DNA of 64,000 nt from assembly GCF_002929845.1 (NCBI RefSeq), contig NZ_PJJS01000044.1, positions 1 through 64,000 on the forward strand, read 5' to 3'. This DNA is from Cryobacterium sp. M96 (lineage in GTDB: Bacteria > Actinomycetota > Actinomycetes > Actinomycetales > Microbacteriaceae). Below the pieces are notes generated by a model. The model saw only the letters and a list, made by a program, of their open reading frames with translations. It had not been told where the DNA came from and made no database searches. Below are positions 21,068-51,552 of this stretch, piece by piece (position 1 is the stretch's first letter; every line of letters begins with the position of its first letter). Both the position numbers and the translations under genes were made by a program.

Positions 21068-21147
<80 letters not shown>

Positions 21148-21192
21148 GGCCGTTCGCGAAACTCTTCACGAAACGGTCTGGTCGAGACAAAA

Positions 21193-21228
21193 AGAAATCG
21201 CTCCTGAGGATTCTCAGGAGCGATTTCT
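21193..21228 (+). terminator. Terminator-like perfect 16-bp hairpin downstream of tRNA-Pro
   Basis: The arms 21193-21208 and 21213-21228 are perfectly complementary with loop GATT. An A-run precedes and T-rich bases follow, so it could stop transcription in both directions. The surrounding ~60 bases recur at 51553-51615. Confidence 0.75.
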
Positions 21229-21378: not shown

Positions 21379-23298
21379 TTAGGTTCTTCGCGGTGGTCCG
21401 CCGGTGCCATCGCCGTCTGAGCGTTTGGGTTTGGTCGGCCGCTCCACACCGGGTGGGTAGGTGTCCGTGTAGGGGTTATGGAATTCTCGGTCGCGACGTC
21501 GGACGAGTGCGATGGGAGGTTCGCCGTTGACCTGCTTCTTGGCGTCGTCTTTGATCTTGTCGCTGATGAAGGCGGCGATTTTGCGCAGGTTGAAGTTGGT
21601 GAGCAGCATCGTCACGATAATTTGGGCGGCGCCGAATCCGCGGACGCGGCGGCGGCTGGCGGATTCGATGTCTTCGGTGCCGCCGCTTTTCACCTGGTTG
21701 TTGAGGGACTCGATGCTGTTTCGTGCGTGGGTGTGAAACGTGTCCCATTCCTTGGTTCCGTATTCAAACGCTTGGGCGGTGCGGCGGTTGTTGGCGGTGT
21801 CGAAGGCCACGGAGTGCTGGGTGCAGATCTTGTCGGCGAAGTCCGGGAGGTCTTCGCTGTCGACCCCCTCGAGAACCTTCCTGGTCTTGAGGAGCTCTCG
21901 TAGTGGGCAGGTCACCGTGGGGCTGGGGCCGAGTGCGGGGCAGCGCAGCACGGTGCGGCCTTTGGCATCAGGTTTTTCCTTGACGTGAAGTTTGAACGCG
22001 GTTCGGCTCGTGATGCGCGCTCGATATGTTTCGGTGTCGATGACGGCGCCCAGCAGGTCCTTGGTGGCGTTCTGTAGGGGTTTGGGCGTTGCGGGACAGT
22101 AGGTGCCGCCTTCGATGTAGAGGGCGCCGTGGTCGCCGCCTTGGTGCCCGAGCCGGTCGGTACGGTAGTCCGTGGACGGCGTGAAACCGAGGTTGAAGGC
22201 GGGTTCGTGGAGGCGTTCGGCGAGTGAGTTGGCCCAGTATTGCTTGTCGGCGTCGCCGACTCCGGCTTCTAGACCAAGGGCTAGGGCTCCGCGCATCAGG
22301 GAGACTGCTTCCTCGGCGACGCGGACGTTGGGCAGGCTCATCGTTGCGGCGACGGCCAGTCCGGGAAACCGGTGCTGCCCGGGAGCTTCGGAGTCGACGC
22401 GGACGGCGATATTGATTTCCCAGCCCCACCTGAAGTTTGCGAATCCGGCCTTCTTGTTTGGAGTGGTGTTGTCGACTTGCCCTTTGGGCACGTCGACGCG
22501 TTCACCGGTCGTGACGTGCCAGCTGGCGAAGGCATCGACCGGACCAGGCTTGAGGGTTCTCTTGTCTTCGACCTTGGCCTCTGCCGCGACTCGGACGGCG
22601 AGATTATTTCGCGAGTATCCCTTGACGGTCGGGGTGCCGACATAGGTCTGGTCGAAGGAGATATCAATCTTCTTGGAGGCGCGCCGGATGTCGCGTGACT
22701 GCTCGTTGAAGGTCATGACGAGGAAGAGCTTCGTGAATTCGTCCAGACGGGCTTTGCGTTTGTCGGCCAGCACTGCGTCGTGTGCGTGGAGGATCTCCTG
22801 AATTTGGGTGTAAGTCTTGGAGTGGCGGCGTTCCTGAGGGAAGGGGTCCATCAGATCGTTGATGCGGTGAAAGGCCCGGCTGGTGTTGGCGTACCAGCGG
22901 TTCTTCTCAGCGACATGACCGACAAAGGCTGCCGAAGGGGCCTGCAGGCCGAGGAGTGCTCGGGAGGCGTCGCTGAGGCGGAACATGAACAGGTCTCGCA
23001 CGCACGTCAGGTGCATCGCCGTGCCCTCTTTGGCCAGCAGCAGCATACCTGTGAGAATGGCCCGTTCTGAGATGAGAGACGGGCGACCGCCGATACTGAC
23101 CGCGACGGCATCTTCGTCTCTCCAATCCTGAAGCCGCTCGAGGACACCGGTCTTCCGAACCCGGCCTTCCATGAGAGCTACGGTGGCGTCGTCAATGAGC
23201 TGGTGGATGTGGCCGCGGCCCATCACCTCAGCTTGGGTGATACCGCCGAGGTCGGGTTCGTATCCGTTGAACGCGTAGTCGATGTCGCCGGCGCTCAT
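21379..23298 (-). CDS. DDE-transposase-like protein of the island recombination module
   Basis: 639 aa. No exact family is recognised, but the layout is that of an IS1182/IS4-type DDE transposase: D216 in ISFDQTYVG, D349 in GVGDADKQYW (followed by Tyr and a helix), and E530 in RNSIESLNNQVK. A Cys-containing insertion (residues about 401-464, CPATPKPL to TVTCPL) and the closing AAQIIVTMLLTNFNLRKI also fit. It overlaps the upstream recombinase-like gene by 4 bases (ATGA) and is the last gene of a four-gene minus-strand operon. No flanking IS inverted repeats were found, so it is not obviously a separate insertion sequence. Catalytic assignment is inference. Confidence 0.6.
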   Translation of the reverse strand: MSAGDIDYAFNGYEPDLGGITQAEVMGRGHIHQLIDDATVALMEGRVRKTGVLERLQDWRDEDAVAVSIGGRPSLISERAILTGMLLLAKEGTAMHLTCVRDLFMFRLSDASRALLGLQAPSAAFVGHVAEKNRWYANTSRAFHRINDLMDPFPQERRHSKTYTQIQEILHAHDAVLADKRKARLDEFTKLFLVMTFNEQSRDIRRASKKIDISFDQTYVGTPTVKGYSRNNLAVRVAAEAKVEDKRTLKPGPVDAFASWHVTTGERVDVPKGQVDNTTPNKKAGFANFRWGWEINIAVRVDSEAPGQHRFPGLAVAATMSLPNVRVAEEAVSLMRGALALGLEAGVGDADKQYWANSLAERLHEPAFNLGFTPSTDYRTDRLGHQGGDHGALYIEGGTYCPATPKPLQNATKDLLGAVIDTETYRARITSRTAFKLHVKEKPDAKGRTVLRCPALGPSPTVTCPLRELLKTRKVLEGVDSEDLPDFADKICTQHSVAFDTANNRRTAQAFEYGTKEWDTFHTHARNSIESLNNQVKSGGTEDIESASRRRVRGFGAAQIIVTMLLTNFNLRKIAAFISDKIKDDAKKQVNGEPPIALVRRRDREFHNPYTDTYPPGVERPTKPKRSDGDGTGGPPRRT

Positions 23299-24353
23299 CG
23301 GGCGACCTCTTCGCCGATGATGAGACCGACGTACGCGCTGGTGTTCGCTGCTTTGGCGTGCACGAGGTGCTTGTCCAAGCTGTGGGCGGAGGCGAACCCG
23401 GCGATGGCCAGGAGCACCGGGACCGGGAGTCCGTTGTCGATTTGGGCGATGATCCAGGTTGAGCGCAGTCTGGACACGGTGGCTCGCACGCTGGCGGGAT
23501 GCTCGGTTAGGAAGTTCTGGATGACCCGTGGTCGATACTCGTCCCAGCGATACCCACTGAAGACGAAGTCCTCGGGGTTAGTGCGGTCCTGGATGCTGCG
23601 CAGCAGGGTGCGGTTCCAGAGGTGCATCACCGGAACCCGACGTGCGCGCTTTCCTGGGACGTTGACGAACACGCGGCCGTCGACGATTTCAATGTCGCCG
23701 ATTCGCGTGTCGATGATTTCGTCTGCGCGGAGGCCCGCACCTCCGGCGAGGCCGAGGAGGGCCCAGGCATTTCGTCGTTTCAGGTCGGTCGTCAGGCTTG
23801 CGGCCCAGCTGTGCATGGTGGCGGCGTCGGAGACAGTGAAGGGGCGACGACCGGGAAGGTTAGGTGCCGGGAGACGGTTGATGTCGGTGCCCGCGAGGGT
23901 GTCGGCAACGGTGCCGATCTGCCTGACGAATCCCCAGCGGTGGGATTCAGAGTGCTTCGGCAGACACGCGTGCAGATACCGGGACACGTTGTTCTGCGTG
24001 TACACGCGCTCGACGGTGAGCCGTGTGCCCGTTGTCGTCCACACCCAGGCGGCAAAGCGTGCCGACATCGACATGAGTCGGCGGGTCGCGTCGAAAGTGC
24101 GCGGCTGCATCCGTACGGCGTTCGCGATGGTGAATTCGCGCACGGCGGCCCATTGCACGGGGGAGACGTGCGGCCGGTACCGGATGATGATTCCCCACAC
24201 GTAGTCGGGAATCTCGGGGTCCAAAGCTCGAAGGTGCGCGTACGTCGCGGAGTCGGCGTGGAAAATGTCGTTGAGTTGGTCTTTTCTGTTCACGAACGTT
24301 ATGTGCGTGGGGCGTCCCCAAAGCTGTCGACGACAGTGGCCCTTCCCAAGCAC
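23295..24353 (-). CDS. Tyrosine-recombinase-fold protein lacking the nucleophilic Tyr
   Basis: 352 aa (GTG 24293 is an alternative start, giving 332 aa). The C-terminal half follows the phage-integrase fold: Arg I in GAGLRADEI (R209), the beta-hairpin Lys in VPGKRARRVP, and box II as SRLRSTW (S294 where His is usual, R297 kept). The LGH motif is replaced by AGF (F320), and at the spacing where the nucleophilic Tyr belongs there is His329. It therefore probably binds DNA without canonical strand cleavage, or uses another residue. It sits between a second such protein and the DDE-like gene. Confidence 0.7.
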   Translation of the reverse strand: MLGKGHCRRQLWGRPTHITFVNRKDQLNDIFHADSATYAHLRALDPEIPDYVWGIIIRYRPHVSPVQWAAVREFTIANAVRMQPRTFDATRRLMSMSARFAAWVWTTTGTRLTVERVYTQNNVSRYLHACLPKHSESHRWGFVRQIGTVADTLAGTDINRLPAPNLPGRRPFTVSDAATMHSWAASLTTDLKRRNAWALLGLAGGAGLRADEIIDTRIGDIEIVDGRVFVNVPGKRARRVPVMHLWNRTLLRSIQDRTNPEDFVFSGYRWDEYRPRVIQNFLTEHPASVRATVSRLRSTWIIAQIDNGLPVPVLLAIAGFASAHSLDKHLVHAKAANTSAYVGLIIGEEVAR

Positions 24354-24385
24354 CGTTCATCACCGCCGTTAACTGAAATCCCTGA

Positions 24386-25291
24386 TCAAATTGATTTATG
24401 GGATGTGTGCGGCGTGACGCTGTGCCCTGTTTTGGGGGCAAATGTGGCGATTTTGTCGAGGGCTGCGAGATTCTTCAGCCCGGAAATTCGGAGCAATTCT
24501 CGAGGTGGAGTGCCGACTTGGAGGTGTTCGAGCAGCCATGTCGTGCGCATTCGGCTGGGTCGCACATCCAGTTCGGTGCGCGATCTCAGTAGAAAGTCGG
24601 TGATCTGTCCTGGGCTTGCGCCGGTTCGCCCGGGACGAAAGATCAGTGCGGCCGGGTCGAGATCTCCGAGGATTCGGCGAAGGGGGCGCTGCCAGTCGGG
24701 GCGGATCGGAACGACGCGCGGACGGCTCTCCCACACGATTACGTGCATCTGGTCATCGCGGGTATCTAGGTCTGTGACCCGAGCGCCGAGTATTTCCCGA
24801 GTGGCGAGGCCGGCGCCCAGCCCAAGGGCCAGGAGGGCAATGGCGTCACGGTGACGTCGTGGTGTGCCCTGTGCTGTCGCCCAACTGTGCAGTGCTGCGA
24901 CCTCATCGCGTGTGTAGGGCCTCGTAGGAGCCGAGCGTGGGATTGCGCGCCGCAGGCGAACCGCCTCGGAGGGGTTCAGAGCCTCCACCATGAGAGACAG
25001 GGTCGCCCGATGCGTGGCTCTGCTGCCGCGGGTATAGGCCGTCATGCCGAGATGGATGAACTCTTCGACGATGGCTCGGCGGAAGATGCGCGGCCGTTCC
25101 AACGGTGTGCCTCGGCTCTGCCAGCACCAAAGCACGAATGCCACGGTGGCCGGATACAGCGACCGCTTGTCACGACCGGAGATGCTCGCGGTGGCATCGA
25201 CGGCGTCGGTGACGAATTTGCCGATCGTGTCCCAATAGGGCAAGGCATTGATCGGCCGGTAGTCGAGCGGCGACACAGCCTCCGCGGTCAT
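24386..25291 (-). CDS. Second degenerate tyrosine-recombinase-fold protein
   Basis: 301 aa, parallel in layout to its downstream neighbour: Arg in GAGLATREILG, box II as SRMRTTWLLEHL (Ser for His), SGLKN in place of LGHSS, and LDKIATF where the nucleophilic Tyr should lie, so no Tyr is present. The shared S-R-(L/M)-R-(S/T)-TW pattern and a LDK motif show the two proteins are related to each other. It overlaps the small upstream gene by 4 bases. A DNA-binding or architectural role is an inference. Confidence 0.7.
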   Translation of the reverse strand: MTAEAVSPLDYRPINALPYWDTIGKFVTDAVDATASISGRDKRSLYPATVAFVLWCWQSRGTPLERPRIFRRAIVEEFIHLGMTAYTRGSRATHRATLSLMVEALNPSEAVRLRRAIPRSAPTRPYTRDEVAALHSWATAQGTPRRHRDAIALLALGLGAGLATREILGARVTDLDTRDDQMHVIVWESRPRVVPIRPDWQRPLRRILGDLDPAALIFRPGRTGASPGQITDFLLRSRTELDVRPSRMRTTWLLEHLQVGTPPRELLRISGLKNLAALDKIATFAPKTGHSVTPHTSHKSI

Positions 25292-25590
25292 GGCGTGCCC
25301 GAATCCTCAGGCAGCGGTTCGATGCGGATGACGGGGGTGGATTCGCGTGTTGTGAACCAGACGCCTGGAATCCACAGGTTGATCAGCAGCAGTAGGGGCT
25401 TGCCCAGGCGGCACTGCATGACCTCGACAAGGTCGATGTCTTCGCCGTCGCGGCGGAGGCCACGACGTGCCACGAGAGTCGGATTTGTCGTTCGCCGAAA
25501 CAGGCGCCGGTTGAAGTCGAGGGTGTAGCGGCTACCGGATTCTGTCGTCACGAGATAGCGGCCTGTTGCCTCGTCCGTCAGCGCGTACAT
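25288..25590 (-). CDS. Small first protein of the recombination module
   Basis: About 100 aa from ATG 25590, which has GGAGA 6 bases upstream; a longer frame reaches 25698. The sequence starts MYALTDEATGRYLVTTESGS, is rich in beta-strand-like segments (RYTLDF, LLLLINLWIPGVWFTTR) and shows no known motif or clear membrane signal. Its stop overlaps the start of the 301-aa recombinase-like gene, so it is translationally coupled to the module. It could be an accessory or directionality factor; nothing in the sequence proves this. Confidence 0.6.
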   Translation of the reverse strand: MYALTDEATGRYLVTTESGSRYTLDFNRRLFRRTTNPTLVARRGLRRDGEDIDLVEVMQCRLGKPLLLLINLWIPGVWFTTRESTPVIRIEPLPEDSGTP

Positions 25591-25778: not shown

Positions 25779-26375
25779 ATGCGGCACAGAACGGATCCGG
25801 CAGACCTCCACGCGAGGGCCGTCAGGCTGTGGATACAGACCGGAGAACCTGACGCACAGTCAGTGTTCTACGCTGAGGCGGACAGGATCCTGTCATCAGG
25901 GCGAGAGTCAGATAACGGCGGAACCCCTAAGCGAGCAACCAATTGGGTCGCAGCACTCCACCGCTACGAAGAATTCGCGCGAACCTGCGGCCGTAACCCT
26001 CGTGAGAACACCAGAGACCGCGCCAGTCTGCCCGGCGACGAGCGTCGCTTGGGGGAGTGGGCCCGGTACCAGCGCCGCTTCCCAGAAACTCTCACCAGCT
26101 ACCAGAGAATGCGGCTCGACGTCTCGCCCGCCTTCGATTGGGACCCTCACGAACGCGTGTGGCAAGCGCAACTTACAGCATGCTTGCGGCACCTTCGAGA
26201 CCACGGCCGGCTCCCATACCTGAACGGTTCAGAGAGAGCTGAGTTCACTCTCGCCCGCTGGCTCGGACGCCAACTTCGGCAACTGCAAACGGGCACCCTC
26301 CGCAAGGACCGCGCCATTCTCCTAACCCACCTACTGAACCTCGCGGCCGAAATCGGTGAAACACCGAGCTTGTGA
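25779..26375 (+). CDS. Helicase-associated (HA) domain protein
   Basis: 198 aa, divergent from the recombination module. Two repeats resemble the HA domain found at the C-terminus of some bacterial helicases: RRLGEWARYQRRFPETLTSYQ, and later FTLARWLGRQLRQLQTGTLRKDR (W, Q and G spacing). No helicase motor is present. HA repeats probably bind nucleic acid. A stand-alone HA protein on an island may be a remnant or a small DNA-binding factor. The start at ATG 25779 was chosen as the first in-frame ATG. Confidence 0.6.
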   Translation: MRHRTDPADLHARAVRLWIQTGEPDAQSVFYAEADRILSSGRESDNGGTPKRATNWVAALHRYEEFARTCGRNPRENTRDRASLPGDERRLGEWARYQRRFPETLTSYQRMRLDVSPAFDWDPHERVWQAQLTACLRHLRDHGRLPYLNGSERAEFTLARWLGRQLRQLQTGTLRKDRAILLTHLLNLAAEIGETPSL

Positions 26376-27675: not shown

Positions 27676-28020
27676 ATGAGACACGACGATTCAGCAATCA
27701 ATTCCATCCTCCAGGCCGACCCGCTGCTCAACGAACTTCAGAACGACTGGTTCGTCAGCCTGATGGAGTTCTTCCACGCGTGGGAGCACAATCCATCCGC
27801 GGAGTCCCTCAACGGTCCAGCCCGAAACGTAATGAACAGGCAATCGGAATACAACATGGCGGCTGCGCAAACGAGTTCGATGCTTGAACAGGCATTCGAC
27901 TACATGCGCCACGGGCAGACATGCTGGAGAGAATGTTGCGTGACCGAGTATCTCAACCTTGAGAAGGCCACGCTCGTCTTCGACCCGCTGGGCGTCATGG
28001 GCACAGACATCAGCTTCTGA
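27676..28020 (+). CDS. Hypothetical protein, 114 aa
   Basis: Starts at ATG 27676 (MRHDDSAINSILQADPLLN), mostly helical and rich in Trp/Glu/Met: WFVSLMEFFHAWEHNPS and MLEQAFDYMRHGQTCWRECC. No known domain. The upstream extension of the frame to 27469 overlaps the previous gene and has a biased composition, so the short form is preferred. It ends just before a strong hairpin terminator. Confidence 0.45.
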   Translation: MRHDDSAINSILQADPLLNELQNDWFVSLMEFFHAWEHNPSAESLNGPARNVMNRQSEYNMAAAQTSSMLEQAFDYMRHGQTCWRECCVTEYLNLEKATLVFDPLGVMGTDISF

Positions 28021-28318
28021 CGGCGAGCCACCGACGGTACTCATCAACCGCCCGCAGTGCCCCTCAGCTGAACGGCTGAGGGGCACTGCGGTGGTTTGTT
28101 GGCCGGGCAATCCGAATTCATCAGGGGCATTTCGAAGATCATGCCCGTCTCTACCGCCCAGAGCAACGCGGGCTGGCTTGCGCACAACTTCGTTGGCGCT
28201 CGACAAGACCGGTCTGCCGCCGCCCGCAGGAGGGGTTGCGGTACCCTGCTTGCGCCTCGGTACGGATTCCGGTGCTTATCGTTTACCGGTGTCATCGGCC
28301 GGCTGTAGGGTGGTAAAC
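28021..28318. other. Intergenic leader of the ietAS-like operon
   Basis: About 300 bases without a supported gene. The first part holds the hairpin terminator. The second part should carry the promoter for the downstream operon, but I could not assign boxes with confidence. A GTAGGGTGG stretch ahead of 28319 serves as the ribosome binding site. Confidence 0.5.
28046..28097. terminator. Very strong bidirectional hairpin
   Basis: A perfect 17-bp stem (28052-28068 with 28075-28091) around the loop TGAACG, extended outward by about 6 more pairs with one mismatch, then GTTTG. It separates the 114-aa gene from the ietA-like operon. Confidence 0.85.
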
Positions 28319-29446
28319 ATGGCAGCCCCAAAGACTACTCTTTACCAAGAGCCGGGCGGGCTCGAACGAGCGCTGGTCGACTTGGTACGCATTGGCGCGC
28401 GCGGGCACGCGGGCGGGGTGCGTCAGCTCGCTGGCCGACTGATGCGAGCAATTCCACCAGAAGTGTCCGACGCTGGTGCGTTCCGAACTGCAGTTCATGA
28501 GGCACTATCCGCGGCCAATCCGTCAAACGGTCTCCGGTTCGACAGCGGGGCGATTCCTACAGATGCTGAGGGACTGCACTCGCTTGTGAACGTCGATGCG
28601 GTTCCCGGTGCTGACGAATTCATCGCTGATGAGCGGCTTGCTGCTCAACTGCAAGAGATCGTGGCTGAGCGTAAGCGTGCCGAGGAATTGGCGCGCGCGG
28701 GCGTCTCAGTGAGCCGGACTGTCTTGTTTTCGGGCCCGCCGGGGGTGGGCAAGACGCTCGCCAGCCGATGGATCGCGCAACAGCTCGAACTGCCGCTGGT
28801 GACCCTGGATCTCGCGTCCGTCGTTTCGAGCTATCTGGGTAGTTCTGGTCGGAACATCAAGTCGGTCCTGGAGTTCGCGAAGTCCGGACCCTGCGTGTTG
28901 TTCCTGGACGAATTCGATGCCGTCGCCAAGCGGCGCGATGATGATACTGACATCGGCGAGTTGAAGCGGATCGTCAACGTGATACTTGTCGAGCTTGATC
29001 GCTGGCCAGAGACGAGTCTGTTGGTTGCTGCTACGAACCACCCCCAGTTGCTAGATGAGGCGATTGATCGCCGATTTGACCGTGTATTGAGCTTCCCACT
29101 CCCTGGCGACTCTGAACGGCGCGCCCTCCTCACTAGGGCTAACCAAAGCGACGTACCCATCGCGGTCATCGAGCTAGCGGCCGCTCTGTGGGAAGGGCAC
29201 AGCCACTCTGACATCGTGCGATTTTGGGAGCTCTGTCGACGGAAGGCGATATTGCACGATCTCACCCTCGAATACGTCGTGGTGAATCAATTGATTGAGC
29301 AGTTTCCGACAACTGAGCTACGGACCTCAGTGTGGCGACACGCTCATGAGCAGTTAGACATGTCTAATCGTAAGATCGCGACGCTTGCAGGCGTCAGCCA
29401 TCCGACGGTTGCCACGGGCATCCGTCAAGCAAAGGACACGATGTGA
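28319..29446 (+). CDS. ietA: AAA+ ATPase, IetA-like
   Basis: 375 aa from ATG 28319. The single AAA domain has Walker A GPPGVGKT at 139-146, Walker B LFLDEFDAV (D197, E198), sensor 1 in VAATNHPQLLD and the arginine-finger region DRRFDRVL. The last 25 residues (RKIATLAGVSHPTVATGI) look like a helix-turn-helix. It is coupled through a GTGA overlap to a subtilisin-like protease gene. An ATPase/S8-protease pair of these sizes is the layout of the IetAS anti-phage/plasmid-incompatibility system; the assignment rests on that layout, not on a search. Confidence 0.75.
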   Translation: MAAPKTTLYQEPGGLERALVDLVRIGARGHAGGVRQLAGRLMRAIPPEVSDAGAFRTAVHEALSAANPSNGLRFDSGAIPTDAEGLHSLVNVDAVPGADEFIADERLAAQLQEIVAERKRAEELARAGVSVSRTVLFSGPPGVGKTLASRWIAQQLELPLVTLDLASVVSSYLGSSGRNIKSVLEFAKSGPCVLFLDEFDAVAKRRDDDTDIGELKRIVNVILVELDRWPETSLLVAATNHPQLLDEAIDRRFDRVLSFPLPGDSERRALLTRANQSDVPIAVIELAAALWEGHSHSDIVRFWELCRRKAILHDLTLEYVVVNQLIEQFPTTELRTSVWRHAHEQLDMSNRKIATLAGVSHPTVATGIRQAKDTM

Positions 29447-31818
29447 CAGATATCGGTGCAGCGGGCAACGTAGCCCGACGCCTACTCCTGAATGGGGAAT
29501 CACTCCGTCTTGATGTGGAGCCCGCGCCGACCGGAGGCGGTCCGAAGTATGAGCCCTTCACATCCGAGCAAGCACGAGAGTGGCTCCTTCCTCAGGTCCG
29601 GTCTGCGCGTGCCAATATTCAGGGGCTTCCTGACTCGCTGCGAGCGGCGGACCGCGTCTACGTCGAAGCTAAGCTTCTGCCAAACTACATCGCTCCTACC
29701 TACTACCCCGAGGCCCTTCTCGGCTTCATCGGTGCCGTCCCCGTCGGTTCGCGCGCCGACACTGGCACACTCCGCACCGCGTCGATGGAGAAACTGAGCG
29801 GCACCCGACGACTAATCCTCGCCGTCGACAACGCGGCGCTGGAACGACTAGAAGAACTTGTCAACGCACCTGGCACAGGCCGCAGCGCTCTGCAGGCGTT
29901 TTCGCAGATACGACGCCTAGAGGAATTTGCTTCGCCAGCGCCGAGCACCGTTCTGCGAACCAGCCCTGGAATTGACGCCTCAGCGGGCGAGCATTCCGTG
30001 TGGGAAGCAGTGCTCCACCCCAGCACGGTGCGATCCGGCGAACCAGTACCGATCGACGACGAGGCGCTGGAGCGGTGGATCGCTTTGGTTGAGTCACGCG
30101 GCGGAGAAGTGCACCGAGACTACCTCCGCCAGGTGGGTGGCCTCACTTTCATGCCGATTCGCGCGTCATCAACCGATGTACCTGAGCTAGCGAGATTCAA
30201 CCCACTGCGGGTCCTTCGGCCGATGCCCGCAATCCGGCCACGCCCACGATTCGGACTTCGAAGCGGGAGCCGAGTTGTCGCGCCTGCCGTTCGCGGTGCG
30301 CTTGCTGATGTGACAACGGTGGCGGTATTCGACGGCGGTGTACATGACCGAGGCCGGAGTGGTCTGTTTCCGATACCAGTTATCGATCTGACCCCGGAAG
30401 CGGTAGACGCGGATGATCTCGATCACGGCACAGGCGTGACCGGAGCCGTGCTGTACGGGCTGCTGGAATCGGGTTCGCAGGCGCCGCAACCACCGCTGCC
30501 GGTGGAGAGCTTCCGCGTCATGCCCGCTCCCTATAAACCGGGAGATCTCGACGGATATTGGATCCTCGATCGTATCAAGGAGACTTTGGCCGAGGACCGC
30601 CACAAGCTCGTGAATCTGAGTCTCGGCCCCACGCTCGCTGTCGAAGACGACATGGAGCCAAACCGCTGGACCGCAGAGTTGGATCAACTTGCATGGGAAC
30701 GGGACATCGTTTTCGTCGTGGCTGCGGGGAACGACGGAAACCAGCACCCGGATACGGGCTTGCACAGAGTTCAGGTCCCCGCTGATATGGCCAACGCTGT
30801 ATCTGTCGGAGCATGTGATGCGCCTGCTCCGGACCGTCCCTGGGCGCGGGCCCCCTACTCTTCGATGGGACCCGGACGACCCGGAAGCCGAATCCAACCA
30901 ATGGGCGTGCAATTCGGCGGGGTCGATGACCGGTTGTTTAATGTTCTGCGCACCGACGGAAGCTTCCTCGAGGCCAGCGGAACAAGCTTCTCGGCACCAG
31001 TTGTAACCCACGCCCTGGCGGATCTTGTCACTCGACTGCCCCGCGTCAACAGCAGTGTGCTTCGTGCGTTCGCCACCCACTTTGCGGAGCGTCATCGAGC
31101 ATTCAAGGCGAGGCAAGATGAGCTTGGCTTTGGGCGTCTGCCGCTTTCATTCGCTGACGCTCTGGATTGCGGGCCCGACGAGGCACACGTCCTGTTCGTC
31201 GATCAGATAGCGCGCGGTGACATCCTCGGCTATCAACTCCCAGTGCCCAGATCCTTCTCGAGTGCGGCGAAGGTCTCGGTCACGCTTGCATACGCTTCAC
31301 CCGTGGAGCCGACCCAGCCGACCGAGTACACCTCCGCTTCGCTTGAGCTCACCTTGCGACCGCACCGCAACATGTTCCGATTCTCACCTCCACAAGGCTC
31401 GACGGAGAAGGCGCGGAACGTCGACCTAACTTCGATCGAAGCGCGAACCTTGCTGACGGCTGGGTGGACGAGCAGCCAGGAACCGGTGACGAAGACCCTC
31501 ACAAGCGCGGCAAGCTCGAACGAGGCGGATCTTCGCGATTCGGGCAAGTGGGAGACATTGCGACACCACCGAGTCAGCTTCGCCGCCGGCGAGATCGATG
31601 ACGCAAGGCTCGAGTTGCGTTACTTCGCTCGCCGAGCGGGCGCTCTCGACGGATCCCCAACCGAAGTGCCGTTTGCAATTCTCGTCTCCGTCTCCGATCC
31701 CAACTCCAGCGGAACGCTCTATGACGAAGTCGCCGCACAGTTCGCTGCACTCCGACCTGTGCAACGGGTTGCCGGACGGCTTCGACTGCGTGGCGGTCGC
31801 CAAAACGCCTGGTACTAG
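29443..31818 (+). CDS. ietS: Subtilisin-like S8 peptidase, IetS-like
   Basis: 791 aa. The complete S8 triad is visible: D297 in VAVFDGGVHD, H328 in LDHGTGVTGAV, and S515 in ASGTSFSAPVV, with the oxyanion Asn in VVAAGNDGNQ. A ~280-residue N-terminal region and a ~230-residue beta-rich C-terminal region flank the protease core. There is no signal peptide, so it should act in the cytoplasm, as expected for an effector partnered with the AAA+ ATPase. The GTG start overlaps the ATPase stop by 4 bases. Confidence 0.85.
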   Translation: MTDIGAAGNVARRLLLNGESLRLDVEPAPTGGGPKYEPFTSEQAREWLLPQVRSARANIQGLPDSLRAADRVYVEAKLLPNYIAPTYYPEALLGFIGAVPVGSRADTGTLRTASMEKLSGTRRLILAVDNAALERLEELVNAPGTGRSALQAFSQIRRLEEFASPAPSTVLRTSPGIDASAGEHSVWEAVLHPSTVRSGEPVPIDDEALERWIALVESRGGEVHRDYLRQVGGLTFMPIRASSTDVPELARFNPLRVLRPMPAIRPRPRFGLRSGSRVVAPAVRGALADVTTVAVFDGGVHDRGRSGLFPIPVIDLTPEAVDADDLDHGTGVTGAVLYGLLESGSQAPQPPLPVESFRVMPAPYKPGDLDGYWILDRIKETLAEDRHKLVNLSLGPTLAVEDDMEPNRWTAELDQLAWERDIVFVVAAGNDGNQHPDTGLHRVQVPADMANAVSVGACDAPAPDRPWARAPYSSMGPGRPGSRIQPMGVQFGGVDDRLFNVLRTDGSFLEASGTSFSAPVVTHALADLVTRLPRVNSSVLRAFATHFAERHRAFKARQDELGFGRLPLSFADALDCGPDEAHVLFVDQIARGDILGYQLPVPRSFSSAAKVSVTLAYASPVEPTQPTEYTSASLELTLRPHRNMFRFSPPQGSTEKARNVDLTSIEARTLLTAGWTSSQEPVTKTLTSAASSNEADLRDSGKWETLRHHRVSFAAGEIDDARLELRYFARRAGALDGSPTEVPFAILVSVSDPNSSGTLYDEVAAQFAALRPVQRVAGRLRLRGGRQNAWY

Positions 31819-31832
31819 CGCGGAGTCTTGAA

Positions 31833-32804
31833 ATGACCACAACATTGATTCGGGACGAAGCACTCGCCCGTGGGACGCTCGGCATGGCCGCGCTCGCGAT
31901 GATGCGACGCGTATTCGCAGAGCAGCTGCCCAGATTTCCTGGACTCCGCGATACTGCCACCGTCGACGATTTCGTCAACAGCTTCTTCGAGGACAAGGGC
32001 GCCGGGTATAGCAACGCAATCACCGCGCTCCCAGATGACCGCGCCGCGAAGCAGGAGACCCGAAAGTGGGTCGAACGATGGCTCGTTGACCTCACCCGCA
32101 AGCAACCCTGGGGTGCGCTCAGGAACCGCCTTGAGAAACGGCTCGAGCGCTCCACCCTGTTCAGCCCGTCGGTCGCGAAGCATTACTGGTTCCTCACAGG
32201 CGGCGAGGATGTCGATCGTCATGTCACTCAAACCGGGCTTCGGGAAATTGCTGCTCTTGCTCCAGTTGAGATGCCGATCGCCACTGGCAATGCGTCTGCG
32301 AGGCTAGGGCGTCCGGGGCAGCTGGAAGAGATGCTGCGAAGAGTTCTCGTCGCGGCGGGCCGGCTGCATGTGAGCGACCTCACTAAAATCTGCGCAGACA
32401 GGTTCCCGTCGCTCCTGGAGACGGGAGATGTCCTCGCGGCAACGGTTGATGCAGATTGGGACATCGTCGAAGAAATGACCCCCGCGATCGACAGTCCAGC
32501 AGCCACCGAGATCAAGCTAGACGACGAGCATCTCGCCCAGCAGTTGATGCCGCGGTTCACGGACACCGAACGAGCAGCCATCCGCCACGGGGGAGACGCG
32601 GCAGCGCTGGCAAAAGACCTTGGAATCGGCCGAACTAGCGCCAACAACGTTGTTCAGAAACTTCGGGCTCGACTTACGGAATTGGCAGGGGACAGCGCAA
32701 GAAGCCAGGGCGTTCTCACGGCCTTGCTAAGTCTCGTACTGGACGATTCGCTCGGTGTCCCGTCAATACAAAGTGAAGATATGGAGGACTCCAATGTCGT
32801 CTGA
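31833..32804 (+). CDS. HTH protein following the IetS-like gene
   Basis: 323 aa, starting 15 bases after the protease with CGGAG ahead of ATG 31833. The C-terminal part FTDTERAAIRHGGDAAALAKDLGIGRTSANNVVQKLRARL resembles sigma-70 region 4 or a LuxR-type helix-turn-helix. The N-terminal 200 residues are helical, with a possible sigma region 2-like layout but no clear -10-binding motif. It may be a divergent sigma factor or a regulator of the operon. The 3' end overlaps the next gene. Confidence 0.55.
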   Translation: MTTTLIRDEALARGTLGMAALAMMRRVFAEQLPRFPGLRDTATVDDFVNSFFEDKGAGYSNAITALPDDRAAKQETRKWVERWLVDLTRKQPWGALRNRLEKRLERSTLFSPSVAKHYWFLTGGEDVDRHVTQTGLREIAALAPVEMPIATGNASARLGRPGQLEEMLRRVLVAAGRLHVSDLTKICADRFPSLLETGDVLAATVDADWDIVEEMTPAIDSPAATEIKLDDEHLAQQLMPRFTDTERAAIRHGGDAAALAKDLGIGRTSANNVVQKLRARLTELAGDSARSQGVLTALLSLVLDDSLGVPSIQSEDMEDSNVV

Positions 32805-33702
32805 AGCATCAGAGCGCTGGATCGCGCTCTCCAAGACATTCCCTGTAGGACCGAAACGAAGAAACGGCATGCTTCGAAGCGCTCAACCGACCGATGGTGT
32901 CGTGGCGGGGCAGTTGCGGCAGGCCTACTGGGGCGACGCCAGGCTTGTGGTCCTCATCGACATTATCGACGACGTCGCCGCGCTAGCCTCCGTGTTCCCA
33001 GCCTGTCTGGAACCCGGGGTTGAAAACAGCACGGCCGTCATCATCGAAGGGGACGCCAGCCCTTTACACGGCCTTGTCACGGTATGGCCTGATTCCCCGG
33101 CGATAATTCCATTCGCAACGCTGGGCTCGACGATCGCCACAATCTCGAAACCTCAGCTCCGGGCCATTCGATCAGCTCCTTCAAACGACCCGATTGCCGA
33201 CGGCCTTCGTCGCGGGCACGGAGAACCGGCACTTGAATCTGGCGCTGCCCTCGCTCTTGCCGACCTATTCGATGCGATTGACGTGCTCCAAAGTGCACCA
33301 CGGCTACAACTGGCCAGCTCGGACACCGCCGCCGCCCAGTTACAGGTTCCGCTTCCGACCATCATGAGCGTCTTGCAAGCACCGCAGCCCCGCGCGATGG
33401 CAATTCGAATGGGTAAAGAACCGCTAACAGTGGAGGAGGCCGACCTCCTTGCCGCGGCAACAGAAGTCCCGCTGAGCCATATCCTCGGGGCGGTCGCACC
33501 GCTGCCGTTGGACCTCCAGCGCGAATTGCAAGAGCCTCGCTGGCGTTCCCACATTCGGAATCGAGCAATCGACGGGGACGAGGATCGCGCCCGCACGCGC
33601 CTCGGATACGAGGCCTATCAGCTCGCCGCTCGCGAGACAGGCCAAGGACGCGAGCTTTGGCGTCAGCGCCTCGACACCGTCCTCGCCACGGATAACCGAT
33701 AG
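32794..33702 (+). CDS. Unknown protein coupled to an ImmA/IrrE-type peptidase
   Basis: 302 aa from ATG 32794, chosen because GGAGG lies 6 bases upstream; it overlaps the previous gene by 11 bases. No full domain is recognised. Residues about 180-240 (LASSDTAAAQLQVPLPTIMSV, then LTVEEADLLAAATEVPLSHI) look like helix-turn-helix segments of the kind found in partners of HExxH proteins. The stop is 3 bases before the metallopeptidase gene, so it may be the regulator controlled by that peptidase. Confidence 0.5.
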   Translation: MSSEASERWIALSKTFPVGPKRRNGMLRSAQPTDGVVAGQLRQAYWGDARLVVLIDIIDDVAALASVFPACLEPGVENSTAVIIEGDASPLHGLVTVWPDSPAIIPFATLGSTIATISKPQLRAIRSAPSNDPIADGLRRGHGEPALESGAALALADLFDAIDVLQSAPRLQLASSDTAAAQLQVPLPTIMSVLQAPQPRAMAIRMGKEPLTVEEADLLAAATEVPLSHILGAVAPLPLDLQRELQEPRWRSHIRNRAIDGDEDRARTRLGYEAYQLAARETGQGRELWRQRLDTVLATDNR

Positions 33703-33705
33703 CCA

Positions 33706-34740
33706 ATGCGCGCCACCTTCGATGACGCTCCGGCTCAAGTTGAGGCGATGCTGAGCGCTTGGGAAGCCCTTGGGGGATCTCTCGATGACCTCACACTAGA
33801 TGCATTCGCGGCATTGGAACAGCGTGTCGACCTCTCTGTTCTCCGGGTGCCGGAGCTCATTCCGGCGGACTCGCACCTGGGCTGCTCCGTCGCTGGCGGG
33901 TATCGCTGGGAGCCGCCAACCCTGGTAGTGACGGAGTCACTCTCACGTCGTCGCCAGCAGTTCACGCTCTTGCATGAACTTGGCCACCACATTCAGAAGA
34001 CAAACATAGACCTGGGCACAAAGATAGTTGAGCACCGGGACCCTGAGGCATTCGAGGACGCTTGCTGCGACGCGTTCGCCGCACGGATACTCCTCCCTGA
34101 CGACCTTGTCAACGCGCACATCTCCAATCGCGGTCCCTCTGTTCGCACCGCCGTCGAACTGTTCGAGACTTCGAGCGCTTCGCGCGCGGCTATTTGCGTC
34201 CGCCTTGCCAACCGTCTTCAATCGCCAGGCGCGGTCGTTGTCGTCACTGAAGACGGAATCGTGACCTTCGCTGCGGCCGGTGGCGGTCTATATCCCCCTG
34301 CTCGCGGTAGTGACCAGACTGAGAATTCGCTCGTCCGCGCGGCGCTCGGCGACGACGATGACAGCCGCACGTTCGTGCGCGATGACGCGCAGATCTGGTA
34401 CCGCGATGGCCACACATCTGAACGGCTCTACGGGCAGGGGGCATGGGCTGGCGACCTGCTATTTCTGGTAATGGTCGAGTACAGTGCCCCGTGGTTGGCG
34501 ATGTCGCCACCCCGAGACGGTACCGTCCAACACACGACCGCCCGCTGGGAGCAATGCGAGCACTGCAACAAGACGTTCGTCATCAGGTTCATCTGCCATA
34601 AATGTGGGCAACCTCGCTGCAGATCGGGTCACTGCGGGTGCACCTCCAAGATGAAGAAGACGTGCGTGGAGTGCTTCCTCCAGAAGCACAGTAATCAATT
34701 CGCTCCCGGCTCCAAAACGTGTCTGGAATGCGCGAGTTGA
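33706..34740 (+). CDS. ImmA/IrrE-family zinc peptidase with C-terminal Cys-rich zinc ribbons
   Basis: 344 aa. The zinc-peptidase motif is HELGHH at residues 90-95, with the downstream DAFAARILLPDD that supplies the third ligand in this family. The last ~65 residues hold many Cys pairs (CEHCNKTF, CHKCGQPRC, HCGCTSK, CVECF, CLEC), consistent with two or three zinc ribbons. ImmA/IrrE proteins cleave repressors to switch on mobile elements or stress genes. Encoded 3 bases after the likely regulator; last gene of the five-gene run beginning at the AAA+ ATPase. Confidence 0.75.
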   Translation: MRATFDDAPAQVEAMLSAWEALGGSLDDLTLDAFAALEQRVDLSVLRVPELIPADSHLGCSVAGGYRWEPPTLVVTESLSRRRQQFTLLHELGHHIQKTNIDLGTKIVEHRDPEAFEDACCDAFAARILLPDDLVNAHISNRGPSVRTAVELFETSSASRAAICVRLANRLQSPGAVVVVTEDGIVTFAAAGGGLYPPARGSDQTENSLVRAALGDDDDSRTFVRDDAQIWYRDGHTSERLYGQGAWAGDLLFLVMVEYSAPWLAMSPPRDGTVQHTTARWEQCEHCNKTFVIRFICHKCGQPRCRSGHCGCTSKMKKTCVECFLQKHSNQFAPGSKTCLECAS

Positions 34741-34774
34741 TCACAGGTTGGACGATTCGGGAGTTGTCCCGTCT

Positions 34775-34818
34775 CTAACTGTTGAGCGGGCATCCGGCCC
34801 GCCAGACAGCAGTTAGGA
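34775..34818. promoter_or_regulatory. Nested inverted repeat upstream of the Ubl operon
   Basis: An outer repeat CTAACTG/CAGTTAG encloses an inner GCGGGC/GCCCGC pair. It lies immediately ahead of the AGGAG site at 34815-34819 and could be an operator, an attenuator, or the terminator of the upstream gene. Confidence 0.45.
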
Positions 34819-34825
34819 GCCCACC

Positions 34826-35470
34826 GTGGCACCCACAGACAAGACCCAAATCCACATCGACGGCGAACCGATCGACGTGACGGAGCGGCGCCTCACCGGC
34901 GCCCAGCTGCGCGCGTTCGTAACACCGCCGGCTGAAAACCTATGGCTCGATGTAGCCGATGCACCGGACCACCCTGTCGTACCCACAGAGTCTGTGGTAG
35001 TCGAGAACGGGATGCGATTCTTCACCGATCGCTCCCGCACTATTTACCTCGACAAGGTGCCCTACGTAGTTCGCACGGCGGCGCTCATTGAAACTCAGCT
35101 GCGTGGCCTCCCCACGCCGCTTGTGCCTGACAGCCATGGGATCTGGAAGGACATCCCGGATGACCTGGACGACCCCATTGAGACCGGCGAGATCGTTGCG
35201 ATCGTCAACGGTGACCGCTTCTTCACCAAGCCTCTCCCTCAGAAGAAGATCAGCGTCACCGTCAACCGCCGTCCGGTCACTATCCACGGCGCCGCTCAGA
35301 CTGGCATGTCGATCAAGGATTCCGCGATAGCTCAGGGCGTTCCCATCAAGATCGACTTCCTTCTGTCCCGCAAGGACGGCCCGAAGTTCAAGCCTGTCGA
35401 CGATAACGTGCACATCCGTGTCCGGGACGATGACGAGTTCCGCGCGAACGACGGGGATGACAACTCGTGA
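34826..35470 (+). CDS. Multi-ubiquitin-like (triple beta-grasp) protein
   Basis: 214 aa, GTG start behind AGGAG. Three repeats of a ubiquitin-like pattern are visible: residues 6-66 (IHIDGEPIDV, VENGMRFFT), 68-137 (PYVVRTAALIETQLRGLP, VNGDRFFTKP) and about 141-207 (ISVTVNRRPVTIHGAAQTG, VHIRVRDDDEF). This matches bacterial multi-ubiquitin proteins that are encoded beside E2, E1 and JAB genes. The C-terminus ends in an acidic tail without a Gly-Gly, so a standard exposed diglycine is absent. Coupled to the next gene by a 4-base GTGA overlap. Confidence 0.75.
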   Translation: MAPTDKTQIHIDGEPIDVTERRLTGAQLRAFVTPPAENLWLDVADAPDHPVVPTESVVVENGMRFFTDRSRTIYLDKVPYVVRTAALIETQLRGLPTPLVPDSHGIWKDIPDDLDDPIETGEIVAIVNGDRFFTKPLPQKKISVTVNRRPVTIHGAAQTGMSIKDSAIAQGVPIKIDFLLSRKDGPKFKPVDDNVHIRVRDDDEFRANDGDDNS

Positions 35471-35868
35471 ACACGATGACGACTTCCGCCGTCATCCTGG
35501 AAGCGATCGACGAGCTCGAGCAGACGTTCGCGGACGCCATCGTCACGACTGAAGACGACGCCGCAGGCGGAGTATGGGTATCCATCAGCAATGTCCCGGT
35601 CGGGCCGGCCTATGAGCAGGAAAGCTCGTGGATGGCATTCCAGATCACATTTCCTTATCCAGAGGCCGATGTATACCCGCTGTTCGTGCGCCCCGATCTC
35701 CGTCGCAAGGATGGCGGTGCTCACGGCGAAGGCTTCCAGTCCGTTCCTTGGGGTCCGCGCGGCGAGAACGGAACGCAGCTGTCACGCCGTAGCAATCGAC
35801 TCGACCCCGCACTCGATACGGCCGCGACCAAGGTGTTGAAGGTGCTCAAGTGGCTCGGCAAGCAGTGA
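35467..35868 (+). CDS. E2-like (UBC-fold) protein without a catalytic cysteine
   Basis: 133 aa. WMAFQITFPYPEADVYPLFVRPDL has the beta-meander and Pro-rich turn of the E2/UBC fold. No cysteine occurs anywhere in the protein, so it cannot form a standard E2 thioester. Cys-less E2-like proteins occur in some prokaryotic Ubl operons. It is placed between the Ubl and the JAB-E1 gene and overlaps both, so it is certainly part of this operon. The fold assignment comes from pattern and context only. Confidence 0.6.
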   Translation: MNTMTTSAVILEAIDELEQTFADAIVTTEDDAAGGVWVSISNVPVGPAYEQESSWMAFQITFPYPEADVYPLFVRPDLRRKDGGAHGEGFQSVPWGPRGENGTQLSRRSNRLDPALDTAATKVLKVLKWLGKQ

Positions 35869-37289
35869 TCGGCGATTGGACAGTCGTAATCACCGGGGAG
35901 CAATGGTCCGTCCTGCACGGTCACCTATTCCCCGGTGATGGGGACGAGCACGGCGCGATCCTCCGATGCGGGATTGCGCACGGCCCCCGTGGCATACGGT
36001 TACTCGTCCGAGACGTCGTGCCGGCAATCGACGGTGTCGAGTATGTAGAAGGAAACCGGGGCTATCGCAAGCTAACCGCCGAATTCGTCGCAGAGAACAT
36101 CGATATGTGCGCGCAAGAAAAGCTCGCCTACGTCGCGGTGCACAACCACGGCGGGCGCGACCGCGTCGGTTTCTCTGGGACCGACATGGCATCCCATGAA
36201 CGCGGATACCCAGCGCTACTGGACATCAACGACGGAGTCCCCGTCGGCGCACTTGTGTTCGCCAACAACGCCGTGGCTGGCGACATCTGGACCAACGACG
36301 GGAAACGCCACACGATCACCGACATGCGTGTTGCAGGTCGGCCCCAGCTCACACTCACGCCGGAGCCGGAGGCCGCCCAGGTGGCGGACTCAACATACGA
36401 CAGACAGGCACGTATCTTCGGTGATCGCGGGCAGGCGATCCTCGCTGGATCCAAAGTCGCCGTGATCGGGCTTGGCGGAATCGGCTCCCTCATTTCCGAA
36501 TACCTTGCCCGACTCGGAGTGGGAGAACTCGTGCTCGTCGATCCGGATCGCCTCGATCCGACCAACCTGCCGCGCGTCGTCGGCGCCCGCCGATCCGACG
36601 CGATGCCTCTGCTCCAAAACGACGCCCGACCGCAGTGGATGCAACGACTTGGCGCCCGTCTCGCGACCACCAAGGTGAAGATCGCCGCCAGAGTCGCTCG
36701 GCAAGCATCCCGAAGCATGCGCATCACCGCAGTTCCGCGCTCCGTTGTCGAAGCGGACGTCGCGGTGCTGTTGACCGACTGCGACCACATCTTCCTCGCC
36801 GCGGACTCCGCTCTCGCCCGTCGCTTAGTCAACGCGATCACTCACCAGTACCTCATCCCCAATACCCAAGTCGGCTCGAAAGTCACGGTCATCGATCGGC
36901 AGATCGCCGATATTTTCTCCGTATCTCGAATGAGCGGTCCGGGCAGTGGGTGCCTTCAGTGCAACGGCCTGATCCCCGCATGGAAGCTAACGGAAGAAGC
37001 CACTAGCGACGTCCAACGTCGCCGACAGCGATACATAAACGACGAGGACGTCCACGCCCCCAGTGTGATCACCCTCAACGCGGTCGCCGCATCGCGTGCA
37101 GTCGATGACTGGCTCATGGCCATCGGCGGCCTCACGGATTCGGAAGCGAGCGCCGACCATTGGGTCTCATATCACCCACTCACCGATGAAGTAGTCGAGC
37201 ATGAACCCGCGAGGTCACCCGATTGCCGCCATTGCGGTGCGTCTCGATTTGCTCGGGGTGACCAAGTGCCACTGCTCGCGAAAACCTAA
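35850..37289 (+). CDS. JAB peptidase-E1 (ThiF) fusion protein
   Basis: 479 aa. The N-terminal JAB/JAMM domain has every ligand in place: E33, H98-x-H100, S109 and D112 (VHNHGGRDRVGFSGTD). The E1/ThiF domain starts near residue 203 with VIGLGGIGS (GxGxxG from G207), then VDPDRLDPTNLPR, the adenylation signature. Two CxxC pairs (368/371 and 459/462) should bind a structural zinc. This single chain could both process Ubl and adenylate it. GTG 35850 has GAAGGTG 5 bases upstream; GTG 35865, inside a GTGA junction, is the alternative start. Confidence 0.85.
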   Translation: MARQAVIGDWTVVITGEQWSVLHGHLFPGDGDEHGAILRCGIAHGPRGIRLLVRDVVPAIDGVEYVEGNRGYRKLTAEFVAENIDMCAQEKLAYVAVHNHGGRDRVGFSGTDMASHERGYPALLDINDGVPVGALVFANNAVAGDIWTNDGKRHTITDMRVAGRPQLTLTPEPEAAQVADSTYDRQARIFGDRGQAILAGSKVAVIGLGGIGSLISEYLARLGVGELVLVDPDRLDPTNLPRVVGARRSDAMPLLQNDARPQWMQRLGARLATTKVKIAARVARQASRSMRITAVPRSVVEADVAVLLTDCDHIFLAADSALARRLVNAITHQYLIPNTQVGSKVTVIDRQIADIFSVSRMSGPGSGCLQCNGLIPAWKLTEEATSDVQRRRQRYINDEDVHAPSVITLNAVAASRAVDDWLMAIGGLTDSEASADHWVSYHPLTDEVVEHEPARSPDCRHCGASRFARGDQVPLLAKT

Positions 37290-40656: not shown

Positions 40657-41031
40657 AGGTTGCATACCTTTCTGCGGCACCCAGTTTGCCTGGGCGGTGT
40701 ACCAGGACCCTACCGTCTGGACTCCGGTATCTCTGGTGATGGGGCCGTCTCGTTTGCGCTAGATATCGGTGATATTCGGCAAATTCCGAGTTAAAGCTAG
40801 AACCTTAAAAGGGGTCGCAGGTTCAAATCCTGTCAGCCCGACCAAAGCCAACGGGACGTTCCCGAAACTCTGCACGCAACGGTGCGGCCGGTCTTGGTGA
40901 TGCAGTTTCTGGGCTCACCCGGCCCCGGGGACGGTCGGAGCACTGCGAGGCAACGATGCCGAGGTTGAGGGAACAAGACGGTGACGAACTTCACGTCCCG
41001 AGTCTGTGACTGACGGGCCCTGGTGCGGTCT
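40657..41031. other. Island right end and flank, no gene
   Basis: Contains attR but no ORF that I can support. Frames crossing it lack ribosome binding sites. Confidence 0.5.
40809..40847. repeat. attR: 39-bp copy of the tRNA-Pro 3' end
   Basis: Identical to 21109-21147. No acceptor 5' strand, D-arm or anticodon arm precedes it, so this is not a functional tRNA. A further 29-base stretch (40855-40883) matches 21149-21177 with 4 mismatches, so similarity continues past the perfect repeat. Confidence 0.93.
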
Positions 41032-43590: not shown

Positions 43591-43743
43591 CTGCTCCCGA
43601 TTCCTCGCGGTCGACATGAGTCGGTACGGGAAACGTCGCTGGGTCGCTCTGGTCCCCCGTTCTGGGGTGTTCGCCCGGTCTCCGACCATTCCCTGCCTCC
43701 AGTAGATTTCAAACAGTCGTGTCTGCACTCGGGGTAGAGGGCA

Positions 43744-51529: not shown

Positions 51530-51552
51530 CGGTCCTGTAACCACGAGGGAGG

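Follow-up and report, generated by a model that had tools for sequence, protein, structure and literature searches.

The DNA considered here, referred to as the window, consists of positions 1 to 64,000 of a 107,415-base contig (NZ_PJJS01000044.1) of Cryobacterium sp. M96; contig coordinates above 64,000 lie beyond it. Beside a tRNA-Pro(GGG) gene in this window, and on the opposite strand, is a four-gene module that is presented here as the probable mobility module of a transposon family. Its four open reading frames (ORFs) all lie on the minus strand (Table 1). Going outward from the tRNA, they encode a 639-amino-acid (aa) protein, two related tyrosine-recombinase-fold proteins, and then a small protein, whose reading frame extends to 25698 as the longest ORF. 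The 3' end of the tRNA and the end of the 639-aa reading frame are 238 nt apart. Numbering instead from the small gene, overlaps of 4 nt join genes 1 and 2 as well as genes 3 and 4, with genes 2 and 3 separated by 32 nt. An earlier reading of this DNA (the original prediction) had described ATGA-type overlaps wherever these genes are contiguous, and such overlaps are indeed what is found.

Table 1. Features of the window, in order of position (a dot marks a feature given without strand).
Positions	Strand	Feature	Source
21068..21144	+	tRNA-Pro(GGG), target gene, 3' end toward the module	ARAGORN
21141..21146	.	ACCAAA, the four final tRNA nucleotides and AA; left-hand copy of a presumed 6-bp target duplication	
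21147..21161	.	Left terminal repeat GGGCCGTTCGCGAAA, followed by the CACGAAAC repeat	
21193..21228	.	Hairpin with a perfect 16-bp stem, located where the tRNA and putative transposase genes converge	inverted-repeat scan
21379..23298	-	Predicted DDE transposase, 639 aa, distant IS1182-type relative; D216, D351, R526, E530, K537	
23295..24353	-	Recombinase-fold protein 1, 352 aa; both Arg retained; Ser, Phe and His at the HII, HIII and Tyr columns	
24386..25291	-	Recombinase-fold protein 2, 301 aa; of the pentad only the second Arg is kept, the rest being replaced by Ala, Ser, Leu and Ile	
25288..25590	-	Small conserved protein, 100 aa, function unassigned; present in other element copies	
25779..26375	+	Recurrent accessory gene, 198 aa; helicase-associated (HA) domain slightly below the Pfam cut-off	
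27959..37289	+	Island genes of defence type: IetA/IetS pair, capP-like M78 protein, multi-ubiquitin/E2/ThiF genes	
40809..40847	.	39-bp copy of the tRNA-Pro 3' half and, after it, a decayed left end (GGGACGTTCCCGAAA at 40853)	
45556..45570	.	Right terminal repeat TTTCGCAAACGGCCC; next 6 bp ACAGAA	

The 639-aa protein displays the conserved acidic residues of a DDE (Asp-Asp-Glu) transposase. Among aligned relatives, D216 is Asp in 52/53, D351 is Asp in 57/57, and E530 is Glu in 69/69, with R526 being Arg in 68/69 and K537 being Lys in 64/69. The spacing that results, R-x3-E-x6-K, is reminiscent of YREK, the signature of IS4-type transposases. A triad of D216, D349 and E530 had been proposed for this protein, of which the first and last members stand; column 349, however, is Asp in merely 7 of 57 aligned relatives, and the second Asp is D351 instead. 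Kinship to known DDE proteins is seen as well, in that a profile of 48 family sequences, compared once with a profile of 20 IS1182-type transposases, gave a probability of 97.5% (E 8.1e-12). Here D351 and E530 fall on the IS1182 Asp and Glu, and the D..Y and R...E motifs along with the RG...NL tail align. Eight column shuffles and a reversed profile all gave 0.1% or less, and a recombinase control 0.1%. Comparisons with single transposases or with small sets were weak, the signal coming with the 20 IS1182-type sequences. A Pfam scan of eight DDE rows gave noise alone, and sequence searches of the PDB, with the 639-aa protein and with a profile of five DDE relatives (A1), gave nothing meaningful. 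It is to the profile comparison that the assignment of a DDE fold is owed, since the structure model failed, with a mean predicted local distance difference test (pLDDT) of 44. Given these residues and this kinship, the 639-aa protein is predicted with good confidence to be a DDE transposase and a distant relative of those of IS1182 type.

The two recombinase-fold proteins are paralogues (29% identity, E 2.3e-27). Against Pfam Phage_integrase, with its cut-off of 27.1 bits, the 352-aa protein passes at 28.6 bits and the 301-aa protein fails at 16.7 bits. A model of the recombinase fold (mean pLDDT 82.3; predicted template-modelling score, pTM, 0.54) has XerA as its best Foldseek match (E 1.5e-7), followed by Cre and the Tn1549 integrase. 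The 50 PDB matches listed, out of 63 with E up to 0.001, all are tyrosine recombinases or Cre derivatives by title or entry. The fold thus is that of a tyrosine recombinase, but the R-H-R-H/W-Y catalytic residues are not in place, with the pentad found in none of 79 aligned recombinase-fold sequences (two of them fragments). The first Arg is present in 19/46 of protein 1 and in 0/31 of further copies, HII is never His, and HIII is never His or Trp; the second Arg is present in 75/77.

Alignment bears out the SRxRxTW box that the original prediction had seen in both window proteins, with His and Ile at the Tyr column. That both proteins keep two Arg is correct for the second; the first, however, is kept only by the 352-aa protein, with the 301-aa protein having Ala there and an Arg two residues on. 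Similarly, ‘nucleophile-less’ describes the window pair well but not all of the relatives, as Tyr is found at the nucleophile column in 31/48 proteins adjoining the DDE gene and in 7/31 of the further ones. At 15/48 loci, the window among them, no aligned recombinase-fold sequence has a Tyr there. As the pentad is absent in 79/79 while the fold and one Arg are kept, catalysis by these proteins most likely has been lost.

Relatives of the module are widespread, and they are found at tRNA genes. The A1 profile detects the family in 76/398 sampled genomes of the window's taxonomic family and in 16/296 sampled genomes across the class, the window's own genome being included in each case. A scan for closer relatives returned seven named loci, in Cryobacterium (three), Leifsonia, Microterricola, Terrimesophilobacter (a member of Microbacteriaceae) and an Aeromicrobium metagenome-assembled contig. 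Five of these (L205-L208, L210) have the order protein 2, protein 1, DDE and then tRNA gene; in the remaining two, i.e., a 3.9-kb contig and a fragmentary hit, there is no tRNA in the stretch. More broadly, 65 oriented regions were compared, 60 of them stretches from the window's taxonomic family and the rest the window's own contig along with regions in G187, G193, G009 and G058; this set is partly non-independent owing to shared genomes or overlap (L068/L117/L118, L069/L121, L092/L123). Of the 65, 54 have a tRNA gene next to the DDE gene and on the other strand, the tRNA 3' end pointing toward the DDE gene at a median gap of 233.5 nt (10th to 90th percentile, 207-285). The targeted isotypes are Leu (17), Ser (12), Pro (9), Met (9), Ala (2) and Lys (2), along with Val, Arg and Gln (one each). 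The flanks of ordinary DDE loci (PF13751, PF01609), by comparison, hold a tRNA in 0 of 47 cases, a few of which are duplicates (e.g., L212/L227), and elsewhere in the regions a facing tRNA end occurs within 300 bp at a frequency of 0.0006 of positions. At the class level, 15 of 17 loci tested have the same arrangement, the 17 being drawn from 24 returned; the other seven are own-genome places or second pieces of places already included. One of the 15 involves a tmRNA rather than a tRNA (L295 363-729, in G1048). A consistent tie to tRNA genes thus is observed across genomes; the original prediction had put forward as a check whether the four-gene order always lies next to a tRNA repeat.

Eleven of the 65 regions have no tRNA. 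By eye, two of them (L068, L122) have a tRNA-Pro 3' half immediately ahead of the left end, three (L118, L121, L123) are junctions with another element copy, and one (L119) has GACCAAA ahead of the left end; L097, L104, L114, L117 and L124 are unexplained or truncated. A DDE relative is present on six Streptomyces plasmids. Three of these (L011-L013) have one recombinase-fold gene along with the DDE relative, a divergent helix-turn-helix gene, and a similar hypothetical gene. A search of plasmids with recombinase-fold protein 1 gave no match, and a search of viral contigs with two peptide patterns found no relative. The module is the hallmark of a family of transposons found in Actinomycetes.

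The manner of movement of these elements is best seen from the ends of relatives. In one genus (g107), related elements of 10.4 to 36.6 kb, end to end, sit at tRNA-Ser(CGA) in several species. Those of G484 and G582 are 99.6% identical over 19.67 kb. Their left junctions read GCCAGA-GGGTTGTTTGCG in G484 and GCCACA-GGGTTGTTTGCG in G582, and their right junctions TGCAAACAACCC-GCCAGA and TGCAAACAACCC-GCCACA, respectively. Further duplications in this genus are GCCAGA (G587), GCCACG (G448) and GCCAGA (G584), and a tandem pair in G232, with ends head to tail (contig C3, ~362.2-396.1 kb; L083, L194), displays GCCAAA at all three junctions. In this one genus, then, five single insertions have the same 6 bp at either end, as does one tandem pair at its three junctions. 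Sites lacking an element, in G515, G585 and G583, have a single copy and a matching flank (the pairs being G515/G582, G585/G232 and G583/G587). The terminal inverted repeats follow the pattern GGGYYGTT.../...AACRRCCC. The duplication spans the last tRNA bases plus 2 nt, with its last two bases differing by host but being the same at both ends.

Similar ends are found in other genera. A scan of 11 extended regions gave 7 hits in 6 regions versus 0.8 expected, with the duplications ACAGTG, ACGGGC, ACCAAA, ACCAAT, ACGCGA and ACAGGT; one L067 hit (offset 0) was rejected. A scan of 54 loci gave 10 hits versus 1.8 expected, of which six were accepted (L065, L083, L092, L105, G187 with 4 mismatches, and the window). 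Hits at L067 (offset 6) and L084 along with two at L102 were rejected as chance. The single hit of a four-locus scan (L079) was not above its control of 1.14 and was left uncounted. The accepted duplications begin with A or G and then C, which we take to be tRNA position 73, i.e., the discriminator, onward.

Terminal inverted repeats along with a target duplication of fixed length thus are present in relatives; for the window's own element, the left end alone has been placed. As the 6 bp vary by host and yet are equal at both ends, a staggered DDE cut is implied rather than a fixed recombinase crossover, and what these ends bear reads as a DDE signature, not a tyrosine-recombinase attachment (att) site. 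The original prediction had viewed the island's ends as tyrosine-recombinase products and the manner of the island's movement as unclear. Inverted terminal repeats, host-varying duplications and matching empty sites among relatives speak against the former, and, with ends of DDE type, the movement of such elements is now clearer.

The following scheme is, in our estimation, very probably correct. The four genes would provide mobility to a cargo-bearing transposon, in which they occupy the end nearest the tRNA. The DDE transposase would cut the element at its terminal repeats and join it, in one orientation, into a staggered 6-bp target at a tRNA 3' end, with the 6-bp duplication restoring the tRNA end such that the tRNA stays complete. 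The two recombinase-fold proteins, their catalysis lost, would serve as DNA-binding partners that recognize the tRNA 3' end, the element ends, or both, and that recruit the transposase. What has been read from sequence is the DDE kinship, the tRNA orientation and spacing, and the missing pentad, together with the terminal repeats, duplications and empty sites of relatives; catalysis by the DDE protein and site selection by the recombinase-fold proteins are what we infer, and movement might be by cut-and-paste or through a circle. As tRNA 3' ends are classic integrase sites, and as a recombinase-fold match is present in the region of 45/47 full-size DDE genes, usually directly upstream, these proteins are the natural candidates for tRNA recognition. 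A broader version of this scheme, in which transposons of a family spread across the class Actinomycetes use dead integrases to select the target, thereby directing a DDE transposase to nucleotides 73-78 of tRNA (and tmRNA) genes, with the tRNA isotype changing at times during evolution, would seem to be somewhat better than an even bet.

Alternatively, the DDE transposase by itself might select tRNA genes, with the recombinase-fold proteins regulating expression or excision, much as MrpR of SPbeta reportedly is a recombinase-fold protein which acts as a repressor. On a tree of protein 1 (37 rows), isotype requires 10 changes, versus a mean of 22 following shuffling, with 0/200 shuffles as low. 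(Near-copies L082, L083 and L085 were dropped, as were loci in which a full DDE gene, a tRNA or a recombinase-fold gene was missing.) Target choice therefore is inherited along with the module, with isotype switches. The DDE tree, for which no shuffles were run, likewise requires 10, and on this point selection by the DDE protein alone does equally well. The near-constant presence of a recombinase-fold gene beside full-size DDE genes nevertheless speaks against a merely regulatory role, as too does the absence of any tRNA preference among ordinary PF13751 and PF01609 transposases, and this alternative is viewed here as unlikely, albeit the strongest of those considered.

Substantially less probable is catalysis by the recombinase-fold proteins in a divergent tyrosine-recombinase reaction, with the inverted repeats as core arms, the 6 bp as the crossover segment, and the DDE protein as an accessory. 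The tandem junction TTTCGTAAACGGCCC-ACCAAA-GGGCCGTTCGCGAAA does resemble a recombinase core whose spacer is 6 bp, integrases typically target tRNA 3' ends, and the second Arg (75/77) along with many a Tyr in protein 1 (31/48) persist. Such a reaction is difficult to reconcile, however, with a pentad that is absent throughout, with loci such as the window which lack any Tyr at the relevant column, or with 6 bp that differ by host between near-identical elements and yet agree at both ends. The nearly invariant residues, moreover, are those of the DDE protein.

Returning to transposition by the DDE protein, the window's left boundary fits not only a 39-bp exact tRNA repeat (21109-21147 and 40809-40847) but also a terminal repeat plus 6-bp target, the arrangement seen in relatives at both ends. 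ACCAAA is seen as well between right and left ends at contig positions 105496-105501, and ACCAA at 76684-76688. Six further exact ends are present on the contig at four places (45556; 70239; 76669 and 76689; 105481 and 105502), and at 70 and 105 kb it bears remains of the gene for the 639-aa protein; elements therefore seem to have accumulated repeatedly at this tRNA-Pro. The right end at 45556 cannot with confidence be paired with the left end at 21147, since it is ACAGAA, not ACCAAA, that comes next. The ACAGAA following the right repeat (45556-45576) is the duplication found at tRNA-Met in L065, hinting that this segment may have come from a tRNA-Met insertion.

Repeats related to the 40809 copy are found at contig position 70198 and in G429 (L105). 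The island might have been moved via these 39-bp att repeats by an ordinary tyrosine integrase, one that has since disappeared or that acts in trans, with the module a mere passenger, as tRNA-Pro repeats of 35-45 bp away from the gene in more than 10 of 57 genomes searched of the genus, and an ordinary integrase gene adjoining tRNA-Pro in G612, could suggest, but this is the least probable reading, given that the module is found at tRNAs of many isotypes in fixed orientation and spacing, that within the stretches read just two loci, both at tRNA-Pro (the window's and L105), have a repeat of at least 30 bp, that related elements have terminal repeats and 6-bp duplications, and that no integrase is present among 13 proteins scanned at 27-45.1 kb (some short ORFs being outside of that scan). 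The window does possess its 39-bp repeat, that is, but a long, element-borne att core together with a catalytic integrase was not found. For the family, the att reading of that repeat was set aside in light of the host-varying 6-bp duplications of related elements. For the 39-bp repeats themselves an ordinary integrase may well be the right explanation: as ordinary integrase islands use the same tRNA in this genus, the repeats probably are marks of such islands. Left ends, intact or degraded, also are seen directly after tRNA-Pro 3' halves at L068, L122, window position 40809 and contig position 70198. It may be that a tRNA-Pro 3' half alone suffices as target, or that ordinary integrases later split tRNA from element.

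A number of observations weigh against DDE-mediated transposition with dead recombinase partners. The evidence on movement and catalysis of the family is entirely at the level of sequence. For the 639-aa protein, there is no match in Pfam, NCBIfam or PHROGs, an RNase-H fold is not readable from its poor structure model, D216 does not fall on the first Asp (DST) of IS1182 in the profile alignment, and L013, a Streptomyces plasmid locus, has Gly at the D216 position. The three Streptomyces plasmid stretches read (L011, L012, L013) also have no tRNA. Whole-chain TM-scores of the recombinase-fold matches are merely about 0.3-0.5, and at least one recombinase-fold protein has the Tyr at 33/48 loci, with R, R and Tyr in one protein at 13, such that residual catalysis is possible at some loci. 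As for ends, two of eight g107 copies with an intact left end (G408, G586) have no right end in the sequence read, and the window's element lacks a securely paired right end, its scan hit coming from a different copy, whose right end lies at 105 kb.

Other genes of the module and its surroundings may be described more briefly. The 100-aa small protein has tblastn matches (E up to 1e-3) at 19 of 93 loci searched, three of which are places fetched twice, and no match in a Pfam search. The 198-aa gene has tblastn matches at 18 of the 93, some places again fetched twice, and its product scores 27.6 bits against PF03457 (cut-off 28.4). The hairpin of Table 1 probably is a terminator common to the tRNA and transposase genes.

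Within the island, AAA ATPase and subtilase genes (27959-31818) match the IetA/IetS anti-phage defence pair. Following these is a row of M78 (capP-like), multi-ubiquitin, E2-like (under the Pfam cut-off) and ThiF genes (33706-37289), which is a ubiquitin-like conjugation operon with a probable defence function. These genes lie in the window's island and may or may not be part of the element that starts at 21147. A Schlafen-type helicase with a GIY-YIG-like stretch along with a GmrSD C-terminal-domain protein (41722-45093) are defence-like as well. A 445-bp direct repeat, 96% identical, surrounds a formate-tetrahydrofolate ligase gene (51087-51529 and 53680-54124), close to a left-end fragment at 51552.

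The original prediction had suggested an undescribed mixed module, which combines nucleophile-less recombinase folds with a DDE protein. That suggestion is supported, along with a consistent link to tRNA genes, as seen with the conserved DDE residues, the pentad at 0/79, and the 54 of 65 regions. A search of the literature, in which subscription papers and preprints were thinly covered, turned up no account of a DDE element that sits at tRNA genes and has recombinase-fold partners, and a tRNA-targeting DDE family with such partners is likely, though not certainly, previously undescribed. Islands linked to tRNA genes routinely are ascribed to tyrosine integrases. If the scheme described above is correct, then a DDE transposon can fill this tRNA-island niche, with elements of 10-37 kb, and the integrase fold may find further use once catalysis is lost. 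The family as such would be a natural, site-specific and oriented DDE insertion system, the targeting part of which possibly is separable.

Among known systems, likeness to IS1182-type transposases, i.e., carriers of PF13751, consists of distant profile homology, with motifs and tail aligning. IS1182, however, is a small, single-gene insertion sequence, whereas the 639-aa protein is coupled to recombinase-fold genes and a large cargo; the ordinary DDE loci are not near tRNA genes (0/47), and the family's D216 is off of the first IS1182 Asp. Islands and integrative and conjugative elements that integrate at tRNA genes rely on tyrosine integrases, employ tRNA 3' ends as sites, carry cargo, and accumulate in tandem. 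The family differs from them in being without a pentad-bearing recombinase and in having a short, host-varying duplication rather than a long att core. With Tn7-like transposons the likeness is one of logic, as these combine DDE chemistry with dedicated target-selecting proteins, one orientation and a short (5-bp) duplication. In the module, by contrast, the presumed selector has a recombinase fold and the duplication is 6 bp rather than 5 bp. Pfam matches to TnsB, TnsC, TniQ or TnsD are absent from the module and from 20 further window proteins, save for a weak TniB hit inside an ABC transporter.

Strand-biased circularizing integrative elements (SEs) and the GInt elements possess an operon at one end with a recombinase-fold protein lacking the RHRY motif (Tfp/GinC), and display target specificity (PMC10214605). 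SEs and GInts also encode two RHRY-motif recombinases, SEs encode no DDE transposase, and SEs are reported from Gammaproteobacteria and GInts from Gamma- and Betaproteobacteria (PMC10214605). Likeness to the module is found in an RHRY-less recombinase-fold protein within an end operon. The window's module differs in that it is without RHRY-type partner recombinases, both of its recombinase-fold proteins lacking the pentad, and instead possesses a DDE protein.

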